The position numbers and the translations under genes were made by a program. Positions 27,214-60,085 of a stretch of DNA of 64,000 nucleotides are shown here, piece by piece. Each line of letters opens with the position of its first letter. Positions within the stretch are counted from its first letter, which is position 1. This DNA comes from Anaerolineaceae bacterium (GTDB taxonomy: Bacteria > Chloroflexota > Anaerolineae > Anaerolineales > Anaerolineaceae): positions 516,078 to 580,077 of the forward strand of contig JAENYZ010000002.1 of the NCBI GenBank assembly GCA_016841525.1. Direction: 5' to 3'. The notes beneath the pieces are model-generated. The model was not told where the DNA came from, ran no database searches, and saw only the letters and a list, made by a program, of their open reading frames with translations.

Positions 27214-30200
27214 ATGGACCAGATCTTTATCGCACGGGAACAGCAGCTAAAGCAGTTGAGCGAGTGGTTGGCGCAGGCGGTTGCAGGGCATGGCCAGGTG
27301 AGCTTTGTCAGCGGGGAGGCTGGCAGCGGCAAGAGCACCCTTGTTAACGAATTCATCAAACGGGCACAGAAGCAGGACAAGGACCTGGCAGCAGCTGTAG
27401 GCTTGTGTGATGCCCAGACGGGCTTGGGTGATGCCTATTTGCCCTTCAGGGAGGTAATGGGGCAGCTGACGGGAGATGTGGATGCTAAGCTGGCACAGGG
27501 CGCCATCACCCAGGAGAATGCGGGCAGACTGAAAAATATGCTGGTGCTGGCTGGGCAGGCGATTGTGGACGTGGGCCCGGACTTGATTGGCGTATTTGTG
27601 CCGGGTGTAGGGCTGGCGACCAAACTGGGGACCTTTGTGGCGGAGAAAGTCGGTTGGCTGGAGAAGCTGGAAAAGCTGGTAAACAAGCCCAAGGAAAAGC
27701 TGGGAGAAAGCGGCATCCAGGAAAGCCACATCTTTGAGCAGTACGCCAACGTGCTGTGTCGGATATCGGAGAAGAATCCATTGCTGATCATCCTGGATGA
27801 CTTGCATTGGGCTGATGCCGCCTCAATCAATTTGCTGTTTCACCTGGGGAGGCGAATTGGAGAGCATCGCATCATGATCCTGGGTACCTATCGCAGTGCA
27901 GAGGTGGCCATTGGCCGTGGTGGGGAGCGGCATCCGTTGGAAAAGGTGCTGGCAGAATTCAAGCGTTACTTTGGAGAGATCATTCTTGACCTGGATCAAG
28001 CAGTTGAGGAGGAGGGTAGGTCCTTTGTTGCTGAATTTTTGGGGACGGAACCCAACAAACTGGATGAAGCATTCAAAGATAAGCTTTACGAGCATACCGG
28101 TGGACATCCCTTGTTCACTGTGGAACTGCTGAGGAATATACAGGAGCGCGGTGACCTGGTAAAAGATCAAGAAGGGTTGTGGATAGAGAGTCAGTATTTG
28201 GATTGGAACAAATTACCAACGAAAGTGGAGGGTGTGATTGAGGAACGGATTGGCCGTTTGCAGGCGGAGTTAAAAGAGGTTCTGACGGTGGGAAGCGTGC
28301 AGGGAGAGGACTTCACAGCAGAGGTTGTGGCGCGGGTGCAGCAAGCTGAGGCTGGGGGCTTGATCCGGAAGTTGAGCGGAGAATTGGAGCGTCAGCACCG
28401 GTTGGTGCATGGGGAGGGGATCAGGCGGTTAGATCCGGGTGGACAGCGACTATCCCTATTCAGGTTTCAGCACAATCTATTCAGGTCCTATTTATACAAT
28501 GAATTAAGCGAAGCTGAACGTGTCTACCTGCATGAGGATGTGGGGAGGGCGTTGGAGGCGCTGTATGCCGAGCAGGCGGATGAGATTGCCGTGCTGTTGG
28601 CACTGCATTTTGAGAGGGCAGGGGTGGACGATAAGGCGCGACACTACCTGCAGAAGGCAGGTGAGCAGGCCGCTGAAAGATATGCCAACGAGGAAGCGAT
28701 TGAATACTTCACCCGGGCGCTGGAGATGACGCCTGAGACAGAGCTTGAAAAACGTTATGAACTATTGTTATTAAGGGAAAGTATCTACAGTCAAAAGGGA
28801 GATGTTGAATTACAACAACAGGATATTGACACTTTGATGGATATTGTTTACCAGGTAAATAACGAACACTGGTTGGCTGAAGTGTTATATCGAAAATCTC
28901 AATATAATCAAAGGGTTGGTGATTTCCAATCAGTCGTGGAAATTGCAAATGATCTGATTCGACTCTCAGATGTCTTGCATGATAACAAAGTTAAAATTAG
29001 AGGTCATCTTGTGGCGGGAGTGGCTGAAACAAGCAGAGGGAATCAAGAGATTGCCAGAGATCATTTAGTAAAATCCTTGGAATTAGCAAGCAATGAAGGG
29101 CGGCAGCACGAAGAAATGCAATGTTTGAGAAGTCTTTCCAGCATTGAAAGAGAACAAAGCAACTTTGATGAAGCCATTACCTATTGTAAAAGCGCTTTAG
29201 AGTTAGCTAAAAAAAATTATGAAAGAATTGAAGAAAGCAAAATATTAATCATATTAGGAAATCTTTCAAGTGACCAGGGCAATGAAAGCAAAGCGCGATT
29301 CTTTTATGAGGAAGCTTTGCCAATCCTAAGAGAGGTTGGATCGCGACCTAATGAAGCGATACTGCTGAGCAATATGGGTTGTACCTATGCCAATAAGGGT
29401 GATTATAGAACTGCATTACCCTATTTTGAGCAAGCACGGAAAATAAGTCACGATGTGGGTTATCGTGAAATGGAATGTGTTGCCCTTGGCAATCTTGGTG
29501 AGCTATCTGCATCCTTAGGGGATTTTATTGAAGCTAAAAATTACTTCAATGAGGCTCTAGAAATCAACAGGGAAATAGGATATAAATTTTCGGAAATGAT
29601 CGTTTTAAGTCAATTGGGACAAATATTTGAAAGTCTTGGAGAATATTCGCTGGCTAGAGAATATCTTGAAAAATCACTCTTACTCACTATTGAATTAGAA
29701 TCTAAAGAGTGGGAGGTTAAGCTGCATTCAGAAATTGGTAGGCTGTTAGATGCCGCTGGTTTATATAATGAGGCAAATGAGGAATTAATTAAGGCTATTG
29801 AAATTACTAAGAATTTTGATGTTAAATCGGAAGAATGTGATGCATGGGCGTATCGAGGTTTATTGCTTCATCATTTGAATCAGAATCGAGAAGCGGAAAC
29901 TTCTATCAATAAAGCTTTAAATATTGCAAATGGTATAGACGTGGAATCAACTGAGAGATTTGCATATCTGCATTTGGGTAATGTTTTAACCTCATTAGAA
30001 AATTATGATAAGGCCAGAGATTGTTATTCAAAATGTATAAAAATGGCCAATATTATGGGACAAACTTATTTGATTCCCGAAATACAAGCTGGTCAGGCAA
30101 GGGTTGCTGTGTTAGAAGGCAAGCTGGATGAGGCGATGAAATATATTGAGCAGATTCTGGATTACCTCAAAAACCGCAATCTAGTCGGCACAGATGAACC

Positions 30201-43653: not shown

Positions 43654-43706
43654 TCAAATGTTCTAATTTGAATGCATTTTCAAAAATTAACAAGGACAAA
43701 ACTATT

Positions 43707-46178
43707 ATGATGCGATTTGATCGTTTTACAGAACGTGCCCAGGAAGCAGCCCAACGGGCAGCTGAGATAATCCAAAGATATGGGCACAACCAGATTGATA
43801 CTGAACACATTCTGCTGGCGTTGATTGAACAACCCCAGGGTGTGATTTCTCAATTGCTTGAGATATTGAAAATTGATCCCGATAATTTTATGGAACGCCT
43901 GGATTACATCCTGCGTACCAGCCCTAAAGCGAACATCTTTGGCGGCGGGTCAGGCCAGGTTTTCATCACCCCCAGAGTTAAGCGGATTATTGACCAGGCG
44001 AACCAGGAAGCCAACCGGTTGAAGGATGAATATATCTCGACCGAGCACATTTTCCTTGCCATTTTAGGCGAACGGAATACACCTGCGGCGCGATTATTAG
44101 AAGATCTTGGTATCACGCGCCAGCGTGTGTTGGAAGCTATTGATGAATTACGCGGCGGTCAGAAGGTGACGGATCCTAAAGCAGAATCACGTTACCGCAC
44201 CCTTGAAAAATACTCTCGAGATTTGACGACCATGGCACATGAGGGCAAGCTGGATCCCGTAATTGGTCGTGATGTTGAAATCTTGCGTTTGATCCAGATC
44301 TTATGCCGCAGGACAAAAAACAATCCGGTTTTAATTGGTGAGGCTGGCGTAGGAAAGACGGCGATTGTTGAGGGTCTGAGCCAGAAGATTGCCACCAATG
44401 ATGTGCCTGAAATCTTGATGGGTAAGAAAGTTGTTTCCCTGGATTTGGGTGCAATGATCGCCGGATCACGATTTAGAGGTGAATTCGAAGAGCGGCTGAA
44501 GGCTGCTATTGAAGAAATTCAGCGTTCTGATGGTGAGATCATCCTGTTTATCGATGAGCTGCACACCGTTGTTGGTGCCGGTGCTGCACAGGGCGCGATG
44601 GATGCTTCAAGCATGCTCAAGCCTGCCCTGGCACGCGGTGAATTGCAATGTGTCGGCGCAACGACGTTGGATGAATACCATAAGCATATCGAGAAGGATG
44701 CCGCACTAGAACGGCGTTTTGCACCGGTATATGTTGAGGAGCCATCTGTTGATGATACTATTGACATGCTGCGGGGGTTGCGAGACCGATACGAAGCCCA
44801 TCACAAGGTGACCTTTTCCGATGCGGCACTGGTAGAAGCAGCAAAACTTTCGTCACGTTATGTGACGGATCGACGCCTTCCTGACAAAGCGATTGACCTG
44901 ATCGATGAAGCCGCTGCTAAACTGCGGGTGGCTTTATACTCTCTGCCTGATGAACTCAAAAACTTGAAGACGGAAATTGACCGTTTGTTAAAAGAAGAAG
45001 AACAGGCCGGGGTTGAACGAGATTACGAACGTGCAGCCCATATGAAGTCAGAACGTTTGAAAATTGAAGAAGAATTCAAAAAAGGTCGAGATGCCTGGGA
45101 ACAGGATCATAAACTGGACGAGGTGGTTGACGTCAATGATATTGCCGAAGTGATAAACCAGTGGACGGGTATCCCGGTTTCGCAGATGATGGAAGATGAA
45201 AAAGATAAGCTGCTCCAGATGGAAGAACGAATTCATGAGCGATTAATCGGTCAAAAAGAGGCTGTTGCAGCAATTGCCGATGCCATTCGCCGTGCTCGCA
45301 GCGGTTTGAAAGACCCCAGACGCCCCATTGGTTCCTTTATCTTTATAGGGCCATCTGGCGTTGGAAAAACAGAGCTTGCAAAAGCCCTGGCTGAATTTAT
45401 GTTTGACGATGAAGAAGCCATGGTTCGAATCGATATGAGTGAGTATCGAGAGCAGCACACTGTTTCCCGCTTGTTTGGTGCTCCCCCAGGATATGTGGGT
45501 TACGAAGAAGGCGGTCAATTGACCGAAGCTGTTCGACGGCGTCCGTACAGGGTGGTGTTGTTTGATGAAATTGAAAAAGCGCATCCTGAGGTTTGGAATG
45601 CCCTCCTGCAAATTTTGGATGATGGGCGTCTGACTGATGGACAGGGCAGAATGGTTGACTTTCGTAACACGGTTCTGATCATGACCAGTAACCTGGGCAC
45701 GGAATATGTGAACAAAAGTGGTACTTTAGGATTCCTGGGAACGCAAACTGAAGGGGATCAAGCCAACCGCGAGAAAATAGAAAAAGCTTTGAAAGGTGCA
45801 TTCCGCCCAGAATTCCTGAACAGAATTGACGAAATCATTTTGTTTTCGTCACTATCAAAAGAAGATATGCTCGAGATTGTTGATCTTCAGATGAAAGACA
45901 TCCAGAGCCGATTATCAGAGCATGGGTTGAATGTTGAAATAACGGATGAAACCAGAACATGGCTGGCAGAGAAGGGTTATGATCCCGCCTTTGGTGCAAG
46001 GCCTCTAAAACGAGCTTTGCAAAAGCATGTAGAAAGCCCACTCTCGATCAGCTTACTTTCTGGTGAATTTGTTCGGGGTGATACCGTCGTTGTCGATATC
46101 GTCGAAGATGAACCCGCGTTCACGAAGAAGGAAACAGTGAAAGTTGCAAAAACAGAGACCGCTGATGTGAATGGATAA
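43707..46178 (+). CDS. clpC: ATP-dependent Clp protease ATP-binding subunit ClpC
   Basis: The 823-residue class I Hsp100 unfolds proteins for ClpP. Domains: Clp N-repeats (residues ~1-145, [14 protein letters not shown]), AAA1 (Walker [14 protein letters not shown]), a UVR-containing middle segment ([20 protein letters not shown]), AAA2 (Walker [22 protein letters not shown]) and the C-terminal small domain. The start [12 protein letters not shown] matches the family; AAGGA lies ten bases upstream. It is monocistronic with its own promoter and terminator; no mcsA, mcsB or ctsR neighbours are present. Confidence 0.95.
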
Positions 46179-46272: not shown

Positions 46273-49200
46273 TTATGTCGGGTTTTCCTCATTTAATTTT
46301 GCGAGGACAATCAAAGTGATATCATCCAGACGCGGTGCGGTGCCAATAAAATCCTGAACCCTTTCAAGGATTTTGTTTCGATATATCTTGGCTGATGTGC
46401 TGAATTCTTCTTTGAGAATTTCCAGCAAACGTTCGTTTCCAAAGAATAAACCCGAATTGTTTTGGGCTTCTGGAATACCGTCTGTGTAAAGAACGAGCAC
46501 TTCACCCGGCTTAATGTGGATCTCTTTTTCTTCCCAAAGGACATCTTCAAATAAACCCACCAGGGTCCCAGTTTTATCGAGCTGATCAATATTAATTTTG
46601 TCATCTGATTTTCTGAGTAAAAATGGCGGGTTATGACCGGCATTGACATATCTGAAGGTCCCTTTTTCAGGATCAAGGATGCCAAAAACGACGGTCAGGA
46701 AGATCCCGCGCTGGGTATCGCTGAGGATGCGGCGGTTGACGTTTTGAAGAACTTCCTCTGGCTGCAATTTGCTTTCGCCAGCATAGGTACGAATTAAGGT
46801 GCGGCTCATCGCCATATAAAGCGCTGCGCCCGCGCCTTTATCGCCCACATCTGCAACAACAATGGCGATTTTCCCATCATCGAGGTGGATAAAGTCATAA
46901 AAGTCGCCGGAGGTCTCTCTTGCAGGCAGAAGTTTACTTGAGAAATCATAACCAGGTATAATAGGCGAGTGGATTGGGATAAATGTATTTTGGATGCGGC
47001 CAGCCTGAACCATTTCCTGGGTGACCTTTCGATGTTCGATAGCCTGTGCCCTTGCGACGTGCTTTACCTGCCGTAATTTTTCAATGATCACATCCGGGTA
47101 ATAGGTTACACCCATCTCTTTGAATCCACCGAGAGATTCCCGCAGATAATTCTGTGCCTGGTCAACATCTTCGGGTTCATTTCGACTCAGGTAGGTTAAT
47201 CCCAAATCAAGCCAGACCCGTGCACGCCACCAGGCGCCTTCCATTTTCTCAAGCATTTCTGCCGCTTCTGTAAACTTTTCTATGGCGGTTGGATAAAGAT
47301 TCTGTGCTGCTTCAGCCCTTGCTTGTGCGATCATCAGCCTGACGCGATCTTGAATGATAGGTTGTGTTTTATAGATTTCACTTGCTTTTTCCAATGCCGC
47401 TTGCGATTGTTCAAAATTACCTTTTAGAGCCTGAATGTCACTGAGTAAACAATGATAGGCAACGCTTTGACTGATTTTTGCTTCATCGCTTGTCAGCAGG
47501 GAATCTTTGAGCATACTTAATGCAATATCAATATCTGACCGGTTCCCTTTTTTGTCTTCCAATAAATGAGGTTCAACAATAACCTCAGCCAATGTCTGGT
47601 CAGCCTCAAGCACTCTCTCAAGGTCATTAATTTGCCGGCTGCGGTCAATAAGATCAGTGAAAATTTCCACAGCATAAGAGAATTGGCCTTTTAAGCGGGC
47701 AAGGGTTCCCTCGAGGAGGATCTGGTTGAGGGTGTTTTCCTCCAGATATGCATCCTGTCCTCGGGACCCCTGGCGCATTTGCTCAATAAGCTTGCTGGCG
47801 TCATCGAAATCTGCTAACCAAAGGGATGCCTTTGCAATAGATTGCAAAATTCGTTGTTCATCAGAAATACCGCCAGCTCTGTTTCCGAGCTGGATCGCGC
47901 GTTTCCGATAATCACGTGCTAACCTGATCTCACCTAATGTGTCAATTACAGCGGCCAGGTTGATATAGGCACGTGACGCCGGCCCATGCAGCTTATGTGA
48001 TTCGCTGATCTTGACCGCCATTTCAAGGGCTGCCATGGCTTGTTCTGGCTTGACGTTTGGTAAGATGCCAATTGTCGCAAGGGATTCTGCCTGGACATCA
48101 AAGGCATCAAGGCGCTTTGCCATTTCAAGCGCTTGTTCACTAAATGCTCGTGCCATGGCGGGCTGGTTATTGAACAGGTAGGCACGACCTGTCTCGTGAA
48201 GCAGGTAAGCAATATCAGGGCTTTCGATGGCACCCTCGACAGCCTTCAGTCCTTCCAGGCAAATCTCTAAACTTCGTTTTGGATCGTAAGCCCACCAGGC
48301 AGAACGGGCTGACCTTGCAAAGACTCTCGCAAGGGAATCTGAATTTCCTAATTCTTTATGGTGATGTGTGGCGTTTTTCCAAGCCTGGATTGCTTCACGG
48401 TGCTTGGATTGTTGAGAAAGGGCTTCGCCAAGGTCTGTATAAAGGTGAGCTAAACGATCCGGGTCCCTTGTGAGCGTGATGGCCTGCCTGAAAAAATTTT
48501 CAGCCTCGGCGTTTGCAAAGGCATCCATGGAAACATGGCCGGCAATATCCAGGTAGTAAAAAGCTTTTTCTGTTTCCTGCCCCTCAAGAAAGTGGTGGGC
48601 TAATTGTGATGCCAAACGTTCTTCCTGGTTCGGGTAGCGATTCTCCAAAGCTATCCCAACTTTTAGATGCAGGTCGATCTTATCCGCTTCGAAAATTGAG
48701 TTATAAGCTGCCTCGTGCAGGAGGATATGCTGGAACTGGTAGTAGAGTTGTGGTTTGACCTGGGCAACTTTAACCATGCCGAGGGACTCGAGGGTGTTTA
48801 ATTGTGCCATCAATGGAATGTCCGGGGCAACTTCTTTAATCACATCTTCAAGGATCTGTTCCTGGAAAGTGCGCCCAATCACGCTGGCAACCCTGAGGGT
48901 AAGTTTTGCGCCCGAAGGTAAACGATCAATGCGAGCCGTTATCAAGCCCTGTAAGCTGTCCGGAATTTTCTGCGGGTCCATTTTTGTATCAACGATCCAG
49001 CGCTCATTGCGTTTGATTAACACGCCTTCATTGATCAACATGCGCATCAATTCTTCGATGAAATACGGATTTCCTTCAGATTTTTCTAAAACAGCACGAT
49101 GGATGATCCCCGGAATTTGATCTGCGTTAATGATTGATTTTATTAGGGATTGGCTTTCTTCTTTGTTAAGATTGTTCAGGGAAATTTCTGTTAAACGAGG

Positions 49201-50637
49201 TCCGTTTTGCTCCCTGGCTTCTTTCACCAAGCGCCACCCTTCGGAATCACGATCTTCTCTGGTGACCAGACAGAATAGAATTGGACATGTTGAGGTCAGG
49301 GAAAGCATATCGATCAGAAAATCAATTGAAGAAGAATCCGCCCATTGAAGGTCCTCGAGGATGAGCACCAGCGGCTGCTGAGCAGCCAACCTTTGAAACA
49401 TGATTCGAATGCTGTTGAGGTACTGCAAACGCAATTCTGAGGTATTCAGACTGTGAATGTGGCTTTCTTCATCTGCTGACAATGGAATACCTAAAAGGTG
49501 AATAAGGTATTGAGAGGTAGATACTGTATCTCTGTCATCCTGAACTTCCAAGTTGAATTGAATGGCAGTTTTAATTTCCTGTTTTGTTGGTGTTTCTGAA
49601 AGATCAAGCGCCTGGCGAACCAGGTTTTTCAACAGGTGAAATGCTAATTCTCTTCCGAAAGATAGCGCATGAGCCTCAATCCAACGGATGGGGTGAGGTT
49701 GTGTGATGGATTTCGATGCGCGTTTCCATTCAAGAATCAATCGTGATTTACCGATTCCCGGGTCACCAAGAACCAGTCCAACACGACCCAGACCGGCAAG
49801 AACGGTTTCGCTGAGTTCCAATAACAAGTCCAATTCTCGTCTTCGTCCGATCATTGGTGTTTGCTGCCTTGTACTTAACTTATGTGGACTTTTTTGCTGG
49901 GTGGGGATTTGATCTAACTTCCAGAGATGGATGGCATTCTTGCCGTCGCTGCACAAAATTTCGTCCAGGGAAGTGCACTGCACGAAGGGTTTCAAGAAGA
50001 AGTAAGTGTCATCAAACAGCAGCGCCTGGCAGCGAGGAATGTCTGCATTGATTGCCCAATCCAGGCACTCGAGAGTTTCATTTGCTGATTGAAAATCGAA
50101 CTTTAAATTCGATTTTACGTCACCAAGAATGATAGGACCCGTATTCAGGACAACGTGCAGCTGCAGGGGGATCTCATGAGAAGCCTCGATGTCCTGGCTG
50201 ATTATTTTATTTTCTTTTAAAATCGAATCGGCCGCATGGACTGCCCGCAGGGGGTCATCTTCATGACTGACCGGCGCGCCAAAGAATGCTAAAACCGTAT
50301 TCTCCCATAATTTTGCGATGGTACCCTCATATTCGAAAATGATCTTTGAAAACCGATCGAGGGCATTGTTTAATACGAATGTTCGTTCTTCATCAGGTAT
50401 GGTTTTTGTAAAGTCTTCGACATTTGCAACGGAAAACATCAGCGCTGTCACATTGCGGCGCTCTTTTGAGATATAAGAGGCCGTGCGCATCTTTTGAACG
50501 AATGAAGTGGGTGCATTTACCGCTAAACGGGAAAAATATAAGTCTTCCAGAGCTGGGTTGACAGGTATGGGCGTACCGCAGATTTTACAAATGTGGTCTA
50601 AATGACCGAGTTCCGATTGGCAATTTTTGCATTTCAT
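46273..50637 (-). CDS. Zinc ribbon / degenerate cyclase / STAND ATPase / TPR / SpoIIE-type phosphatase fusion
   Basis: 1454 residues. Residues 1-25 are a zinc ribbon (CKNC, CKIC). Residues ~60-215 resemble a class III nucleotide cyclase (VTALMFSVANVEDFT; FFGAPVSHEDDPLRAVHAA), but both metal Asp are replaced (Ser69 and Asn113 by my alignment), so it is probably inactive. Then an AAA_16 ATPase (VLGDPGIGKSR; LVLILEDLQWAD), TPR units (~680-1180) and a C-terminal PP2C/SpoIIE phosphatase with its metal residues (ETSGDFYDF, VVADVGDKGAG, VNAGHNPPFLL, VLYTDGIPEA, LDDITLIVL). It is likely a cytosolic switch whose output is Ser/Thr dephosphorylation, for instance of an anti-sigma-factor antagonist. It is divergent from the cNMP-binding-like gene at 50805. 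Confidence 0.88.
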   Translation of the reverse strand: MKCKNCQSELGHLDHICKICGTPIPVNPALEDLYFSRLAVNAPTSFVQKMRTASYISKERRNVTALMFSVANVEDFTKTIPDEERTFVLNNALDRFSKIIFEYEGTIAKLWENTVLAFFGAPVSHEDDPLRAVHAADSILKENKIISQDIEASHEIPLQLHVVLNTGPIILGDVKSNLKFDFQSANETLECLDWAINADIPRCQALLFDDTYFFLKPFVQCTSLDEILCSDGKNAIHLWKLDQIPTQQKSPHKLSTRQQTPMIGRRRELDLLLELSETVLAGLGRVGLVLGDPGIGKSRLILEWKRASKSITQPHPIRWIEAHALSFGRELAFHLLKNLVRQALDLSETPTKQEIKTAIQFNLEVQDDRDTVSTSQYLIHLLGIPLSADEESHIHSLNTSELRLQYLNSIRIMFQRLAAQQPLVLILEDLQWADSSSIDFLIDMLSLTSTCPILFCLVTREDRDSEGWRLVKEAREQNGPRLTEISLNNLNKEESQSLIKSIINADQIPGIIHRAVLEKSEGNPYFIEELMRMLINEGVLIKRNERWIVDTKMDPQKIPDSLQGLITARIDRLPSGAKLTLRVASVIGRTFQEQILEDVIKEVAPDIPLMAQLNTLESLGMVKVAQVKPQLYYQFQHILLHEAAYNSIFEADKIDLHLKVGIALENRYPNQEERLASQLAHHFLEGQETEKAFYYLDIAGHVSMDAFANAEAENFFRQAITLTRDPDRLAHLYTDLGEALSQQSKHREAIQAWKNATHHHKELGNSDSLARVFARSARSAWWAYDPKRSLEICLEGLKAVEGAIESPDIAYLLHETGRAYLFNNQPAMARAFSEQALEMAKRLDAFDVQAESLATIGILPNVKPEQAMAALEMAVKISESHKLHGPASRAYINLAAVIDTLGEIRLARDYRKRAIQLGNRAGGISDEQRILQSIAKASLWLADFDDASKLIEQMRQGSRGQDAYLEENTLNQILLEGTLARLKGQFSYAVEIFTDLIDRSRQINDLERVLEADQTLAEVIVEPHLLEDKKGNRSDIDIALSMLKDSLLTSDEAKISQSVAYHCLLSDIQALKGNFEQSQAALEKASEIYKTQPIIQDRVRLMIAQARAEAAQNLYPTAIEKFTEAAEMLEKMEGAWWRARVWLDLGLTYLSRNEPEDVDQAQNYLRESLGGFKEMGVTYYPDVIIEKLRQVKHVARAQAIEHRKVTQEMVQAGRIQNTFIPIHSPIIPGYDFSSKLLPARETSGDFYDFIHLDDGKIAIVVADVGDKGAGAALYMAMSRTLIRTYAGESKLQPEEVLQNVNRRILSDTQRGIFLTVVFGILDPEKGTFRYVNAGHNPPFLLRKSDDKINIDQLDKTGTLVGLFEDVLWEEKEIHIKPGEVLVLYTDGIPEAQNNSGLFFGNERLLEILKEEFSTSAKIYRNKILERVQDFIGTAPRLDDITLIVLAKLNEENPT

Positions 50638-50792
50638 GAAAGTATGACTATTCCCAGGACGATTTATGGATATATTTTATCATATTTATATGCTTATAAC
50701 AATACAAAGACAAGAACAATTATAAACAAAATTCAACCCTTTGGTTGTTTCACCAATTTTCATCCACCGTTTATTAAACGCTTAACTTGTTT

Positions 50793-50798
50793 TATACT
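50793..50798 (+). promoter_or_regulatory. -10-like TATACT just before the start codon at 50805
   Basis: TATACT ends six bases before the ATG, and no Shine-Dalgarno is present, which again would give a leaderless mRNA. The -35 is unclear. Confidence 0.35.
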
Positions 50799-50804
50799 TG
50801 GGGT

Positions 50805-52469
50805 ATGGAAATTGAACCTCGCGATATTATGGATATCCTTGAGCATGTGCCCTTATTCAGTCACCTAGGTGAACTGGATATAAGCCGTTGGGCAGGTCTG
50901 TTTAAAGTTGAGAATTATAAAAACGGGCAATTGATTTTTGATTTTGATGATCCTGCTCAGGCGATGTATATCCTGTATGAAGGAAATGTGCAGCTCAATC
51001 TCTATGACGAAGCAGAAACTGAGTCCTTTGCCAAACTGGGGAAGGGGGATTTGTTTGGTGAAGAAGCCTTATTATTTGATGACCCTCGTTATTACAGTGC
51101 TGCGGCTGTGGGAGAGACGACCCTTTTAAGGCTGGATATTGACCATTTTGTTTATCTTCAGGATGAATATCCCGGTCTCTTAGACAAGCTTGATGTGTTA
51201 ATTCGAAGCCGGCATTTATCAACACAGGTACCCTTGTCCTGGCTGCAAGATGATGAATATGTGCATGTGATCACACGCAGGCACAAGGCAAGATTGTGGC
51301 AAAAAATGATTCCGCCGCTTATCCTTTTATTGACAGGAACGATTGCTGGGCTTCTTTTCCAGTATCGCTGGTTCACTGAAAGGTTTTTGGGTTGGATCGT
51401 TTTAGGCTTTTCTGTATTTTTAAGCATCGCATGGGGGATTTGGGCATATTTTGATTGGCGTAATGATTACTTCATTGTGACCAATAAGCGGGTCGTTTGG
51501 ATTGAAAAAGTCGCCTTTATTTATGAGAGCCGCCAGGAAGCGCCTTTAAGAACCATTATGTCTGTGGGACTCAATAGATCAAGGATCGGGAGCATTTTTG
51601 GTTTTGCGGATGTCGTGGTTCAAACCTATGTCGGCACGATTCGCCTGCGAGATTTAGCCCATGCGAATGCCATCGGCAGCATGATTGAAGCTTACTGGCA
51701 CCGTGCTGAGTCCTTTGATCGCCGCCAGGAATCACAAATCATGGCTGAGAAGCTGCATGAAAAATTAGAATTACCCTGGCGTCATGATGAGGATACGAAA
51801 CCCAATAAAATTGAAAGGCGGGAAAAAGAGGAACGCCTGGTCTCTGAAGCAACAAGAGAGCCGGGCTTCCTCACCTGGTTATTTTCCGACTTCTTAAGAT
51901 TGCGTTATGAGGAAAGCGGGGATATCACTTATCGAAAGCACTGGTTTTTGCTGCTGAAAGCGATTTGGCTTCCCTCGCTCCTAATGCTGATGACACTCGG
52001 ACTGGTCGCTGCCAGGCTGGGTGGGGTTTTATCCTTCCTCCCAATTACCAGCACCCTGGTCATACTTTCCCTTGCCCTTTTTGTTTTCTTTATTTGGATC
52101 CTTTATCAATATGCAGATTGGCGCAATGATATTTTTAGAATCACCTTTGACCAAATTTTGGATATCGATCGTAAACCTCTCGGAAAGGAACGGCGGCGTT
52201 CAGCGCCGTTAGAAAATGTGCTCAGCATTGAATATGAGCGACTTGGTTTTTGGGGCTTTTTGCTGAACTTTGGAACGGTTTATATTTCTGTTGGCAATAC
52301 ACGATTGACCTTTGACTATGTGTACAACCCCTCAGAAGTCCAGCAGGATATCTTTTACCGGATGGGCGAGCGCCTCGATAAAATTCGTCAATATGAGGTT
52401 GATTCAGAACGCGAAAGGGTTTCTGAATGGATCGCCAGCTATCACCGAAAGACCAGGCAGAATGGTTGA
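50805..52469 (+). CDS. Membrane protein with cyclic-nucleotide-binding-like domain and two bacterial PH-type domains
   Basis: The 554-residue protein has a cNMP-binding beta-roll (residues ~10-125) with the cassette FGEEALLFDDPRYYSAAAV, keeping the Glu and Arg of PKA-type pockets though YY follows Arg. Two similar halves follow. Each has a pair of membrane spans (PPLILLLTGTIAGLLF and WIVLGFSVFLSIAWGI; IWLPSLLMLMTLGLVAA and a second) ending in a DWRND motif. Each then has a PH-like beta-domain (ITNKRVVW-type, here FIVTNKRVVWIEK; and FRITFDQILDIDRKP). It may sense a nucleotide at the membrane. The start at 50805 is preferred over one six codons upstream. Confidence 0.75.
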   Translation: MEIEPRDIMDILEHVPLFSHLGELDISRWAGLFKVENYKNGQLIFDFDDPAQAMYILYEGNVQLNLYDEAETESFAKLGKGDLFGEEALLFDDPRYYSAAAVGETTLLRLDIDHFVYLQDEYPGLLDKLDVLIRSRHLSTQVPLSWLQDDEYVHVITRRHKARLWQKMIPPLILLLTGTIAGLLFQYRWFTERFLGWIVLGFSVFLSIAWGIWAYFDWRNDYFIVTNKRVVWIEKVAFIYESRQEAPLRTIMSVGLNRSRIGSIFGFADVVVQTYVGTIRLRDLAHANAIGSMIEAYWHRAESFDRRQESQIMAEKLHEKLELPWRHDEDTKPNKIERREKEERLVSEATREPGFLTWLFSDFLRLRYEESGDITYRKHWFLLLKAIWLPSLLMLMTLGLVAARLGGVLSFLPITSTLVILSLALFVFFIWILYQYADWRNDIFRITFDQILDIDRKPLGKERRRSAPLENVLSIEYERLGFWGFLLNFGTVYISVGNTRLTFDYVYNPSEVQQDIFYRMGERLDKIRQYEVDSERERVSEWIASYHRKTRQNG

Positions 52470-56130: not shown

Positions 56131-59100
56131 TCAATCAAAGCTATGAATCTCGAGGTATTGCTGCCGTAATTTTGGGTCGGGGATATGTTTTGCCTTAGCG
56201 TCGATTATGTCTTTGGCTTGCTGGTTGTATTTGTCTGATGCGCTAAGATTTCCGAGGCTCTTTAGAATAAGGGATTGTGCGCGAAATATTTCTTCGGCCC
56301 CCAGCCAGCATTCCCCTGCGCTAGCTATCAATTCCATTGCCGCCCGGGTATGCTCTGCGGCAGTAACAGGGTCTCCAATTGCCAGGTGTGCCAGACCTGA
56401 TTCAACTTCACCGAACATCAAGCAAGCTGGCAGAACCACCTCCCTAGCAATCTGGATTGCACGGGCAGCATATTCCAGTGCGGTTTCTCCATCTCCGCAC
56501 AATCGATAGGCACGAGCCAAAACTGCCAGAGCCCTCGATAAACCTTCATTACATTCGCTTTCCTTTGCAGCTTTTATTGCTTTTTCAAGGTAAATCATTG
56601 AGGATTCTAGCTGCCACGCCTGGATTTTGACCATCCCCAATCCCGTCAACGCAATAATATAACGGCGGATGTGACCAATTGGGTGTGCATGGTCCGAAGC
56701 TAATTCAAGCCAGTGCTGAGCTTGATGGAAATCGCCAAGGTGATAATAAGCCAGTCCAATCCCTTCTTCAGCGGCTACCCGACCATGGGTGCTGTGCAGT
56801 CCCAGCTCCAATGATAATGCCTGATGAAAAAGCTGAAGCGCGTCAAAATAATTTCCCTGACATATCTCCCAATAACCTGACCAGGAAAGTCCATAGGCTT
56901 CAGCTGAGCGCGCCCCAATTTTTCGTGCAAGCTCCAGGCTGCTTGTTAGATTTTGTTTTGCTTCGTTGAGAAGTCCCATCTTCAAATATGTCGCGCCTAT
57001 GTCCAAACCTGCCCAGGCAAGTCCATTATCATCTCCGACTTCTTGATGACAGTGATAGGTTTGTTTTTGCAGATCGAGCGCGCGTTGATAATTCCCCATG
57101 TGAAAATAGACATAACCCAGTGTGTGGCTAAGATGGCGCCGTGTCTCTATTTCAGTATCCGCAATCTTTGAAAGGGCTGGTTCAAGAACTGATAATGCCT
57201 GGCGTGGTTCACCCAGGAAATAATGACCAAAACCAATCTGATTTATTAATAATGCTTGAACCGCACTGTCTTGTGAGTTGTTGGAAAAATCCAAAGATTG
57301 TTTAGCCTCTGCAATTGCTTCTTCATACTGGGCATCAAGGTTCATGAATATTGTTTTCTGCAGGCTGATCTTAATCATAAGATCAGGGTTCTTGCTGATT
57401 TCAGCCAATTTTGTTAATAAAGCCAGGTCCTTATCCCGTTTTTCTAAGTTACCACGCAAATGGTTTTGATGTGCCCTATCAATCAAGATTTCAACCCGTT
57501 TGGTCATATATTCAATTCTTGAATAATTGTGGTCAACACGATCAAGCAATACTAACAAACGCGCCTGGTGTCTCTCAGACTCTTCCCAGGCAAATAATGC
57601 CTCAGCCCGTTTAGCTGCCAGTTCATGATATTCAATCGCCTTATCATTCTCACCCCCCATGTCAAAATGATATGCTAATGCTTCAACAGAGCCAGAGTCT
57701 AATTGCTCAAGAACCCAACCCGCTCGGCGATGTAAGAGCTGCTGTCGCATAGGGTGTAAAGTTTCTTCGACTGCTCGCCTGATAAGATCGTGTTGGAAGG
57801 AGTAGGTGCAGGGGTCAGAATCAAGTGAAATGAACTGGCGTTTGATTGACTCCTCCAGTCCATTACTTGTCTCAATTTCACTGCGTCCAGACTGCAGATG
57901 TATCATATCAAAACTAAAACATTCGCCAAAAACAGCTGCTGCCTCTAAGATCTGACGTGATAGAGGCTTTAGCCGGCGGAGACGTTCTTCTACAGCCTGG
58001 CGAATGCTCTCTGGTAAAGGCAGGTTGTTAATACTTGAAATATCTCTTTCAAGTTTTCCGGTCTCCTTAAGAGTCCGAAGGGTTTCTATCATCAGGAAAG
58101 GATTGCCCATTGTAGATTTCTGTAAGCGTTTAGTAAAGTGACCCTCTTTATCTTCTGAACCGATGAAGTGATTGATAATTTCTCCAGTTGCTTGGCGGTC
58201 CAATCCCTTTAAGATAATCTCAGTGAGGACCCCGACTCGACTCAGGGCATGCTTAAGGTCAATAACTGCCTCGGTTTCCTCACAGCGGTAAGCACCAATA
58301 AAAAGCAAGTGGCTTTGCATTATTCTTTTACTTAAATAAACCAGCCAATCCATCGTAGTGCTGTCTGCGTTATGTAAATCGTCAATTAAGAAAACCAGCG
58401 GATCATGGTTTTTTGATAACAATAAAAATACCTGAACCAGCGCCTCGAAAAGTCTAAGGCGTGCTTCACCTGGTTCGGCTGGGAAAATGGTTGATAATTC
58501 TGGTAGGGGACTCCTAAGTTCTGGTAATAACCGGGTTAATTCGGCGGTCCAAACCGGCGGCAACGCCATTTTTGATATTTCAGGACTCAAAACAGAGCGC
58601 AATGCCTGAACAATCGGTTGATAGGGCAAGTGCTTATTTTGAGTCTGGCATGTTCCTGATGCAACCAGGGTTTCTTGACTTAAGGCGTTAATGAAGTCCT
58701 GAATTATGCGCGTTTTACCAATGCCAGCTTCACCGGAAATCAAAAGAATATTACCCCGTCCAGACCTAACGTTTTCTAAAACATTATTTATTTTACTGAG
58801 TTCTTCCCGTCTTCCAACCAGAGGTATTTTCTGGCTGGGTAATGTCAACCAGGTTTGCTCATGGTACAGGGTTTGAGAAGGCAATAATTGACCATGGAGA
58901 ATAGATTGATAAATCGAACGGGTTTCTATAAGCGGTTTAATCCCGAGTTCGCGTTCAAGGTTTCTTGTGCATGACTCAAATTGGCGAAGTGCTGATTGTC
59001 GATCGCCTGAAGCCGCATAGAAAACCATCAATTTCTGGTGTATCTCCTCGGCTAACTCGTTTACTGCCAGGTACTTTTGAGCGTAAGCAATTGCTTTATC

Positions 59101-59613
59101 GTATTCCCTTCGCGACGCCCACTCTTCAATTAATCGATCCAAGGTTTTTAAGTAATTTTTCTCAAAATTTTGTCCCTCAAGAAACAGCCACTCTTCAAAC
59201 CTGGGAGATCCAGGTAAGGAAAAACCAGCCAACAAAGGGCCGCGATAAAGTTCAACAGCTTGAATCAGGGTTTCCAAAGTGGACTGCTCTTCAGAAGGCC
59301 TGGTTAACCGCAAAAAGCGCTCGGTGTCTGTCCACAGGCAATCACGATTAAGTTGTAGATAATCTCTTGAAGATTGGATGAGTTCAGGGTCTGGCAGAGC
59401 CAGGTGAAGGTGCGCTAGTAGATGGCTGAGGTTGCGCCTGGCAGTGGCGTCCTCATGATCAGGCCAAAACATGTCGCACAGGGTATCCCTGGGTAATTTT
59501 TCTAAACTGACGGCTAACCTGTAAAATAGAGCCCGCACCTGGCGCCGCGGTATATTAAATGACAGGTTTTCTTTCTTTAGAATTACTGGACCCAGGAAGA
59601 ATAAATGATACAT
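56131..59613 (-). CDS. SARP/AfsR-like regulator: winged helix, BTAD, STAND ATPase and TPR
   Basis: 1160 residues from MYHLFFLGPVIL. Residues ~1-90 resemble an OmpR/PhoB-type DNA-binding domain (RRQVRALFYRLAVS). Residues ~95-245 are a bacterial transcriptional activator domain (LIQAVELYRGPLLAGF; YAASGDRQSALRQFESC). An AAA_16 ATPase follows (LISGEAGIGKTRIIQ; LVFLIDDLHNADSTT), then TPR units to the end. It should activate transcription in response to an unknown ligand or ATP state. A GTG 16 codons upstream is an alternative start; neither has a strong Shine-Dalgarno. The small 69-residue gene lies downstream; the beta-helix lipoprotein gene is divergent. Confidence 0.87.
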   Translation of the reverse strand: MYHLFFLGPVILKKENLSFNIPRRQVRALFYRLAVSLEKLPRDTLCDMFWPDHEDATARRNLSHLLAHLHLALPDPELIQSSRDYLQLNRDCLWTDTERFLRLTRPSEEQSTLETLIQAVELYRGPLLAGFSLPGSPRFEEWLFLEGQNFEKNYLKTLDRLIEEWASRREYDKAIAYAQKYLAVNELAEEIHQKLMVFYAASGDRQSALRQFESCTRNLERELGIKPLIETRSIYQSILHGQLLPSQTLYHEQTWLTLPSQKIPLVGRREELSKINNVLENVRSGRGNILLISGEAGIGKTRIIQDFINALSQETLVASGTCQTQNKHLPYQPIVQALRSVLSPEISKMALPPVWTAELTRLLPELRSPLPELSTIFPAEPGEARLRLFEALVQVFLLLSKNHDPLVFLIDDLHNADSTTMDWLVYLSKRIMQSHLLFIGAYRCEETEAVIDLKHALSRVGVLTEIILKGLDRQATGEIINHFIGSEDKEGHFTKRLQKSTMGNPFLMIETLRTLKETGKLERDISSINNLPLPESIRQAVEERLRRLKPLSRQILEAAAVFGECFSFDMIHLQSGRSEIETSNGLEESIKRQFISLDSDPCTYSFQHDLIRRAVEETLHPMRQQLLHRRAGWVLEQLDSGSVEALAYHFDMGGENDKAIEYHELAAKRAEALFAWEESERHQARLLVLLDRVDHNYSRIEYMTKRVEILIDRAHQNHLRGNLEKRDKDLALLTKLAEISKNPDLMIKISLQKTIFMNLDAQYEEAIAEAKQSLDFSNNSQDSAVQALLINQIGFGHYFLGEPRQALSVLEPALSKIADTEIETRRHLSHTLGYVYFHMGNYQRALDLQKQTYHCHQEVGDDNGLAWAGLDIGATYLKMGLLNEAKQNLTSSLELARKIGARSAEAYGLSWSGYWEICQGNYFDALQLFHQALSLELGLHSTHGRVAAEEGIGLAYYHLGDFHQAQHWLELASDHAHPIGHIRRYIIALTGLGMVKIQAWQLESSMIYLEKAIKAAKESECNEGLSRALAVLARAYRLCGDGETALEYAARAIQIAREVVLPACLMFGEVESGLAHLAIGDPVTAAEHTRAAMELIASAGECWLGAEEIFRAQSLILKSLGNLSASDKYNQQAKDIIDAKAKHIPDPKLRQQYLEIHSFD

Positions 59614-60085
59614 ATGGTTCTTTGATAGGATATTGTTTGGTGTGCACCTCAGAAATTTCACATAGCAATAAATGATGTTCTGTGCATTTAAAGGGATCCT
59701 TTGCTTTTAATCACACAGATGATTGTGGGATGCTGTGAAGCTGTCGTTTTTTATCCTCCCCCTGATATTTCATTAGCAACAGGCTGCAAAGCTATCTGCT
59801 CGTTTTTCATGGTTAAATTATATCAGGATTTAATTTCGATTTTTTACAACGAAAAATTATTCTAATCACAATTATCACTCAATAAATTTCAATCGGCTTG
59901 TGAATAAATTTCTCCCGAATGTTTCCTCCAAAATTATTTGATATTGGGTAGGTATCACCGAATTAATAAATTTGTTAATGATAGATCGTTGTTAAAGCAG
60001 ATCCTTACTTACTGCGAAGCCAGGCCTGCTATTTAATGTATAATTTGTTAAATAAAGCGCCCTCAAATTAATATTCCTTTGATAA
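59614..60085. other. Shared upstream region of the SARP-type and beta-helix genes
   Basis: About 470 AT-rich bases with a -10 element at 60039-60044 for the lipoprotein gene. I see no strong palindrome, terminator or further coding frame. Confidence 0.5.
60039..60044 (+). promoter_or_regulatory. -10 element of the beta-helix lipoprotein gene
   Basis: TATAAT directly preceded by TG, about 41 bases before the first ATG; no convincing -35. Confidence 0.4.

Follow-up and report, generated by a model that had tools for sequence, protein, structure and literature searches.

The window analysed here is a stretch of 64,000 nucleotides from an Anaerolineaceae bacterium (contig JAENYZ010000002.1). On its minus strand lies a gene of 1454 codons whose product comprises, in this order, a zinc ribbon, a cyclase-fold domain, an AAA_16 STAND ATPase, TPRs and a SpoIIE/PPM phosphatase. 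These five fused modules had been proposed in the initial annotation and were recovered by the open reading frame (ORF), by Pfam, by phmmer, by the AlphaFold2 (AF2) model and by the four cysteines of the zinc ribbon. The features of the gene are listed below. The names metal Asp and transition-state Asn and Arg are those which we take to belong to the aligned positions of the cyclase family.

46273..50637, minus: whole gene, 1454 aa, ATG start (ORF list, Pfam, phmmer against PDB, full-length orthologs)
50554..50637, minus: single zinc ribbon, residues 1-28, Cys 3, 6, 17 and 20 (sequence; Pfam DZR sub-threshold)
49918..50466, minus: pseudo-cyclase, residues 58-240 (CyaB match, AF2 model, Foldseek, VIA)
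50431..50433, minus: S69, position of the first metal Asp (alignment)
50299..50301, minus: N113, position of the second metal Asp (alignment)
50068..50070, minus: E190, position of the transition-state Asn (alignment)
50056..50058, minus: W194, position of the transition-state Arg (alignment)
49279..49851, minus: AAA_16 STAND ATPase, residues 263-453 (Pfam, E 1e-19)
49744..49767, minus: Walker A GDPGIGKS, residues 291-298, intact (sequence)
49351..49371, minus: Walker B LVLILED, residues 423-429, intact (sequence)
47104..48804, minus: TPR region, residues 612-1178 (Pfam TPR_12, family-specific profile)
46981..47103, minus: predicted linker helix of 41 residues, 1179-1219, running towards the phosphatase (AF2; within the RssB-aligned span)
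46303..46881, minus: SpoIIE/PPM phosphatase, Pfam residues 1253-1445 (Pfam, E 1.3e-47)

Three of the modules exceeded their Pfam cut-offs: AAA_16 (72.2 bits, cut-off 32.6), TPR_12 (54.4 bits, cut-off 30.1, E 1.5e-14) and SpoIIE (162.7 bits, cut-off 25). The zinc ribbon reached 12.2 bits with DZR, below the cut-off of 27.3. The AAA_16 match, both Walker motifs and the C-terminal TPRs place the central part among the STAND proteins of the AAA_16-with-TPR type. The NCBIfam model TOMM_kin_cyc (TIGR03903) matched residues 55-695 with 217.4 bits, below its cut-off of 705.75.

The phosphatase is of the SpoIIE/RsbU-type PPM kind by its Pfam match, its metal Asp residues and its helical linker, the last as predicted in a single-chain model of middling predicted local distance difference test (pLDDT) score. 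The five Asp (D1245, D1263, D1386, D1438 and D1439) are all there and show no variation across the 20 aligned relatives, as expected from the earlier claim of intact phosphatase metal motifs; D1245 sits just before the edge of the Pfam domain. The nearest solved sequences are those of RssB (3es2 and 3eq2). The AF2 model of residues 1150-1448 has a pLDDT of 87.5 and contains one helix (1179-1219) from the end of the TPRs towards the phosphatase, with a pLDDT of about 69-79 over most of its length. The span aligned to RssB by VIA includes this helix (3eq2, model 24-298, Z 24.7, 253 aligned; 3f7a, 25-299, Z 24.2).

Fold, active site and constraint of the cyclase domain

The second module is, as modelled, a class III cyclase fold. 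Guanylate_cyc (PF00211) was unlisted by Pfam for the 1454-aa protein even at E 10. With phmmer, CyaB (3r5g) matched residues 58-234 at E 2e-11, or at E 1.8e-12 when the domain was used alone. The AF2 model of residues 30-262, built on 23 sequences, has a pLDDT of 87 and a predicted template modelling (pTM) score of 0.85, and it resembles CyaB in Foldseek (TMt 0.85, E 5e-14) and Cya2 in VIA (Z 22.6, root-mean-square deviation 2.7 over 190 residues). The statement that the fold landmarks are kept is thus supported by the CyaB match and the model.

The motifs of the domain are V63-T-A-L-M-F-S69 and K109-L-W-E-N113, which the initial annotation had pointed out as standing in place of the metal Asp. 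This was confirmed in the comparison with class III cyclases: S69 and N113 fall on the two metal Asp of CyaB in the HMMER alignment, with no acidic residue at either position. In the numbering of the AF2 model, S69 is near the end of the first strand (31-41) and N113 is in the turn that connects strand 77-82 to strand 85-90.

Intact relatives (13 sequences) hold the first Asp in 13, the second Asp in 13, the Asn in 13 and the Arg in 11. In the 11 distinct sequences of the genus the first Asp is replaced by S (3) or T (8) and the second by N (8), K (2) or Y (1), so that neither is kept in any of them; the Asn is replaced by E (9), D (1) or Q (1), also without exception, and the Arg position holds W, L, N or I, the Arg being kept in one sequence. 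From the alignment, the domain is without the residues that cAMP or cGMP synthesis requires, and it looks enzymatically dead. Conservation in 11 or more of the 13 intact relatives was seen at 46 columns of the domain. All 11 pseudo-cyclases keep the residue at 16 of these columns; the 16 include F119-P122, H125-E126, D128-P129 and T166-G167 and none of the four catalytic ones.

Selective constraint was estimated by the Nei-Gojobori method on six pairs, where window-L041 and L040-L034 were not counted, their dS being saturated in the cyclase domain. The dN/dS of this domain was 0.068 (window-L045), 0.091 (window-L033), 0.070 (L033-L045) and 0.094 (L037-L038, with dS of 1.8, near saturation). 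The phosphatase gave 0.114, 0.112, 0.095 and 0.090 for the same pairs in the same order, the AAA, TPR and phosphatase regions together ranged from 0.068 to 0.135, and the stretch 456-611 from 0.051 to 0.076. Short pieces (the zinc ribbon, residues 29-57 and the linker 236-260) had higher and noisy values, the 25-residue linker reaching 1.19. A comparison of nine orthologs showed 53 of the 178 cyclase sites to be invariant. The pseudo-cyclase thus looks to be under purifying selection and not to be decaying, and since its dN/dS is comparable to the values in the ATPase, TPR and phosphatase parts, it has probably been retained for a non-catalytic job. The combination of a dead cyclase with a live-looking phosphatase is therefore stronger than had been claimed, because the Asn and Arg are replaced as well, the loss is fixed in the genus sequences and the domain appears constrained.

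Distribution of the gene and its fused and split relatives

The gene was identified in 11 of 16 genomes of the genus at a cut-off of 1e-100, and in 7 of 8 when completeness was required to reach 90% and contamination not to exceed 5%. Of the 101 genomes in the family sample, 8 matched at 1e-100; G351 and G298 of this sample match the N-terminal half only, SpoIIE not being seen in the stretch examined. In the class sample 4 of 298 matched at 1e-150, the own genome included, and one of these is a two-gene form. A scan of named genomes recovered 21 loci: 11 fused with SpoIIE, one cut off at its start (L036), five two-gene loci with SpoIIE and four without SpoIIE in the matching gene (L039, L042, L043 and L044). 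This number is a lower bound because only two short patterns were used, and several of the loci are from the same genomes as those of the samples. All members are metagenome-assembled genomes (MAGs) of Chloroflexota (Anaerolineae, Anaerolineaceae, Brevefilum) with the exception of L036, whose contig is filed under a Desulfosarcina MAG. The gene of L036 nests inside the clade of the Anaerolineaceae genus and, by this placement, the contig is probably mis-binned. Another pairing of STAND and phosphatase genes was seen at L039:3322-11707, where two AAA-TPR STAND genes have a SpoIIE gene immediately upstream; the second STAND gene starts with a Ser/Thr-kinase-like sequence.

Outside the genus there are eight SpoIIE-bearing members with a readable cyclase, and seven of them keep both Asp: the fused L025, L030 and L031 and the two-gene L026, L028, L029 and L032. 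Five of these seven also hold the Asn and Arg, while L025 has Q and L032 has H at the Arg position. The eighth is L078, with a shortened cyclase region and none of the four catalytic residues. The cyclase of L027 is masked at the catalytic positions.

Five loci are split into gene A (zinc ribbon, cyclase and AAA) and gene B (TPR and SpoIIE). The two genes overlap by 4 bp in L026, L027, L029 and L032, and the overlap in L028 varies with the assigned start. L029:5506-12502 contains one gene A followed by two tandem copies of gene B, each junction being a 4-bp overlap. The occurrence of two-gene forms beside fusions supports a functional tie between the cyclase-ATPase and TPR-phosphatase halves.

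The intact relative L017, used as query, matched 25 of 400 genomes of the phylum at 1e-120. Fifteen regions were fetched, 14 from these matches and one from the family matches. One of them is L078, a further fused protein with a dead cyclase. SpoIIE was not seen in the stretch examined of the other 14, in which cyclase and TPR are separate in 11 and in one gene in three. The 11 with a cyclase-AAA gene and a separate TPR gene, and no phosphatase in the examined stretch, are L079, L080, L081, L082, L084, L085, L086, L088, L089, L091 and L092, from other Chloroflexota.

The careful tree comprises 26 rows, where the two-gene rows are two joined proteins, the seven rows without SpoIIE form the outgroup, and L029B1, L039, L042, L044, L110 and L112 are left out. 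The SpoIIE-bearing rows group together as a clade (95/96), as do the genus rows among themselves (100/100), and L078 is placed beside the genus (86/85). In a quick tree of the TPR-phosphatase region L078 joins L025 (83), and the AU test does not reject one clade of dead cyclases there (P of the AU test, p-AU, 0.42). The genus and L078 may have lost the cyclase in one event or in two.

Neighbouring genes and related genes of the genome

The gene is flanked on both sides as follows.

43668..46178, plus: convergent neighbour, an ATPase which we take to be ClpC-type, not part of the system (ORF list, conserved synteny)
50787..52469, plus: divergent neighbour with cyclic nucleotide monophosphate (cNMP)-binding and bacterial PH domains (domain matches, genus comparison)

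Both neighbours are found in all eight genus loci that are readable on both flanks, and the FGEE motif is conserved in the eight cNMP-binding neighbours compared. The cNMP-binding gene is present in 12 of 13 genus genomes. At L113, in G365, the site is empty: the clpC-type and cNMP-binding genes adjoin with no phosphatase gene between them. The linkage of the gene to its flanks looks positional rather than functional.

In the own genome there are three STAS matches, among them the candidate phosphatase targets L046:8351-8686 and L048:4099-4434, and an RsbV-like STAS gene is located beside the RsbW-like HATPase gene L046:7929-8339. The only PF00211 match of this genome is L047:13428-16814, with the order zinc ribbon, cyclase, AAA and TPR shared with the window protein. 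Unlike the latter, it retains all four catalytic residues (two Asp, Asn, Arg) and lacks a phosphatase domain; a SpoIIE phosphatase with a cNMP-binding domain is encoded by a gene of its own downstream, as also in G337 and G375. L047:11529-16814 contains, on one strand, the cyclase-STAND-TPR gene, a 143-aa gene and the cNMP-binding SpoIIE gene. The same three-gene order was identified in G337 (L119) and G375 (L120, small gene of 147 aa), the only other genus genomes with PF00211, which is matched in 3 of the 13 sampled and in 3 of 6 among the better ones. No PF00211 match was found in G253 (97% complete) and G757 (95% complete), both of which carry the pseudo-cyclase gene. The L047 gene set looks like a counterpart of the fused protein working in trans, in which the intact cyclase-STAND-TPR protein and the cNMP-binding SpoIIE protein would form a cAMP circuit.

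Finally, two more proteins of the window match the ATPase/TPR part, at 56131-59661 on the minus strand (1176 aa) and at about 27751-28743 on the plus strand (a 1079-aa open frame), as do eleven further proteins of the own genome.

Known systems and proposed mechanism

The closest described proteins are Mclx2 and Mclx3 (Rv1358 and Rv2488c), mycobacterial cyclase-AAA-LuxR proteins without catalytic residues (PMC4452763). They share with the window protein a cyclase-homology domain missing catalytic residues, an AAA/NB-ARC domain and an output domain, and differ in the output, which is LuxR DNA binding there and a PPM phosphatase here; Pfam found no LuxR helix-turn-helix at the C-terminus of the window protein, SpoIIE standing in that place. 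As far as the available part of that source goes, Mclx2 is without one metal residue and the Asn and Mclx3 without the Asn only, whereas the window protein is without both Asp, the Asn and the Arg; both Mclx proteins seem to lack the selectivity residues, and the zinc ribbon of the window protein has no mention for either. Since a dead cyclase with AAA/NB-ARC and an output is already described for them, a precedent exists. The earlier remark that the combination seems unusual holds for its rarity in the samples, as in the class sample above, and not for the dead cyclase joined to an AAA/NB-ARC domain.

Inactive cNMP cyclase domains also occur in the vWA-MoxR conflict systems, where the available text suggests them to be nucleotide binders or dominant negatives (PMC7159879). 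The catalytically inactive cyclase domain is shared, but no vWA or MoxR domain was found by Pfam in the 1454-aa protein. With RssB of P. aeruginosa and RsbU of B. subtilis the window protein shares the phosphatase fold, the metal residues and a helical linker before the phosphatase (PMC12143880, as far as available); the sensor differs, being pseudo-cyclase, STAND and TPR instead of a receiver or an RsbT-binding dimerisation domain. In the portion of PMC12088040 available, TPR, cNMP_binding and zinc ribbons are named with PP2C and the terms 'cyclase' and 'AAA' are absent. No description of a cyclase-STAND-TPR-SpoIIE protein was found in the titles and abstract starts of open-licence literature, among the matches listed. 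The protein family is real, conserved and uncommon; what is new is the STAND-TPR pseudo-cyclase with a phosphatase output, and what is known is the dead cyclase with AAA/NB-ARC and a LuxR output.

The preferred reading, with a probability of about 0.6, is a STAND switch in one polypeptide, where the pseudo-cyclase is a dimerising or allosteric module and the output is an RsbU/RssB-type PPM phosphatase, reached through a helix and acting on a STAS target. The TPR array and the zinc ribbon would receive the signal, and the intact AAA_16 ATPase, as in the STAND family, would change state or oligomerise. The pseudo-cyclase, in which residue loss and constraint are observed, may serve as the dimerising or allosteric domain. 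The rearrangement would be transmitted through the 1179-1219 helix to the phosphatase, which would be activated as a dimer and dephosphorylate a STAS anti-anti-sigma protein of an RsbV/RsbW-type partner switch. That the N-terminal part gates the phosphatase is plausible from the architecture, the two-gene pairs and the predicted continuous linker helix. RsbU is reported to be activated when such a linker folds into a coiled coil and so brings the phosphatase together as a dimer; RssB was compared, and generality for PPM phosphatases proposed (PMC12143880, in its available part). By analogy, linker-driven dimerisation may apply to the present phosphatase.

Several observations weigh against this reading. 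The STAS/HATPase cluster of the own genome has its own five-GAF SpoIIE phosphatase and six places in this genome match the SpoIIE part, the window protein included, which leaves room for a different target. Structurally, the phosphatase model is closest to Rv1364c (Z 27.8) and SiaA (Z 27.7), with RssB behind them; the AF2 models are single chains, and confidence in the linker helix is middling. The cyclase domain has, by alignment, diverged beyond its catalytic sites: at 15 of the 46 conserved columns every one of the 11 genus sequences departs from the conserved residue, and only three of these 15 are catalytic. Finally, the gene is unmatched at 1e-100 in G365 (96% complete) and hence dispensable.

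A tentative alternative is that the pseudo-cyclase is a metal-free sensor of ATP, ADP, cAMP or a similar nucleotide and controls the phosphatase according to whether it is occupied. K109, which we take to be the position of the base-contacting Lys, is K in all 11 pseudo-cyclases and R, H, Q or K in the 13 intact relatives, and residue 183 is Q in 9 of the 11 and mixed in the intact ones. These pseudo-cyclases, however, are from one genus, where the invariant sites counted above make a fixed K109 unremarkable, and the metal contacts and transition-state residues are gone. Allosteric binding of ATP or cAMP has been suggested for Mclx2 and Mclx3 (PMC4452763, in its available part). A dimerising or allosteric scaffold accounts for the conservation as well as nucleotide sensing does. 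A narrower version, in which fusion made catalysis dispensable and the cyclase became a metal-free adenine-nucleotide sensor with K109 fixed, gating the phosphatase while the in-trans version was kept in parallel, is unlikely.

Simple decay of the cyclase domain, leaving a phosphatase with a vestige, is very improbable. The shortened L078 region with its lost catalytic residues and the 15 columns kept by no genus sequence would fit it, but a dN/dS of 0.07-0.09, similar to the AAA, TPR and phosphatase regions, speaks against it, as do the invariant sites and the full predicted fold. Hardly any weight is given to a cyclic-nucleotide circuit of the phosphatase gene and the neighbouring cNMP-binding gene: the conserved divergent arrangement and FGEE motif would suit one, yet a dead cyclase supplies no cNMP, and the cNMP-binding gene is nearly general in the genus, including G365, where it lies beside the clpC-type gene and the phosphatase gene is absent. 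Least probable of all, and set aside, is a heterodimeric cyclase half paired with L047:13428-16814, the only intact class III cyclase of the genome: class III cyclases function as dimers in which the two subunits share active sites, but this domain has lost both the metal and the transition-state half-sites and could therefore complete neither, and G253 and G757 bear the gene without a PF00211 match.

Under the preferred reading of a one-polypeptide switch, the protein is a case of a phosphatase output for a STAND ATPase. The role of dead cyclase domains in bacteria has so far been mostly conjecture. In this one family the same phosphatase occurs with an intact or a dead cyclase and in fused or two-gene form, so that roles of the cyclase domain beyond catalysis become testable by comparing natural relatives.

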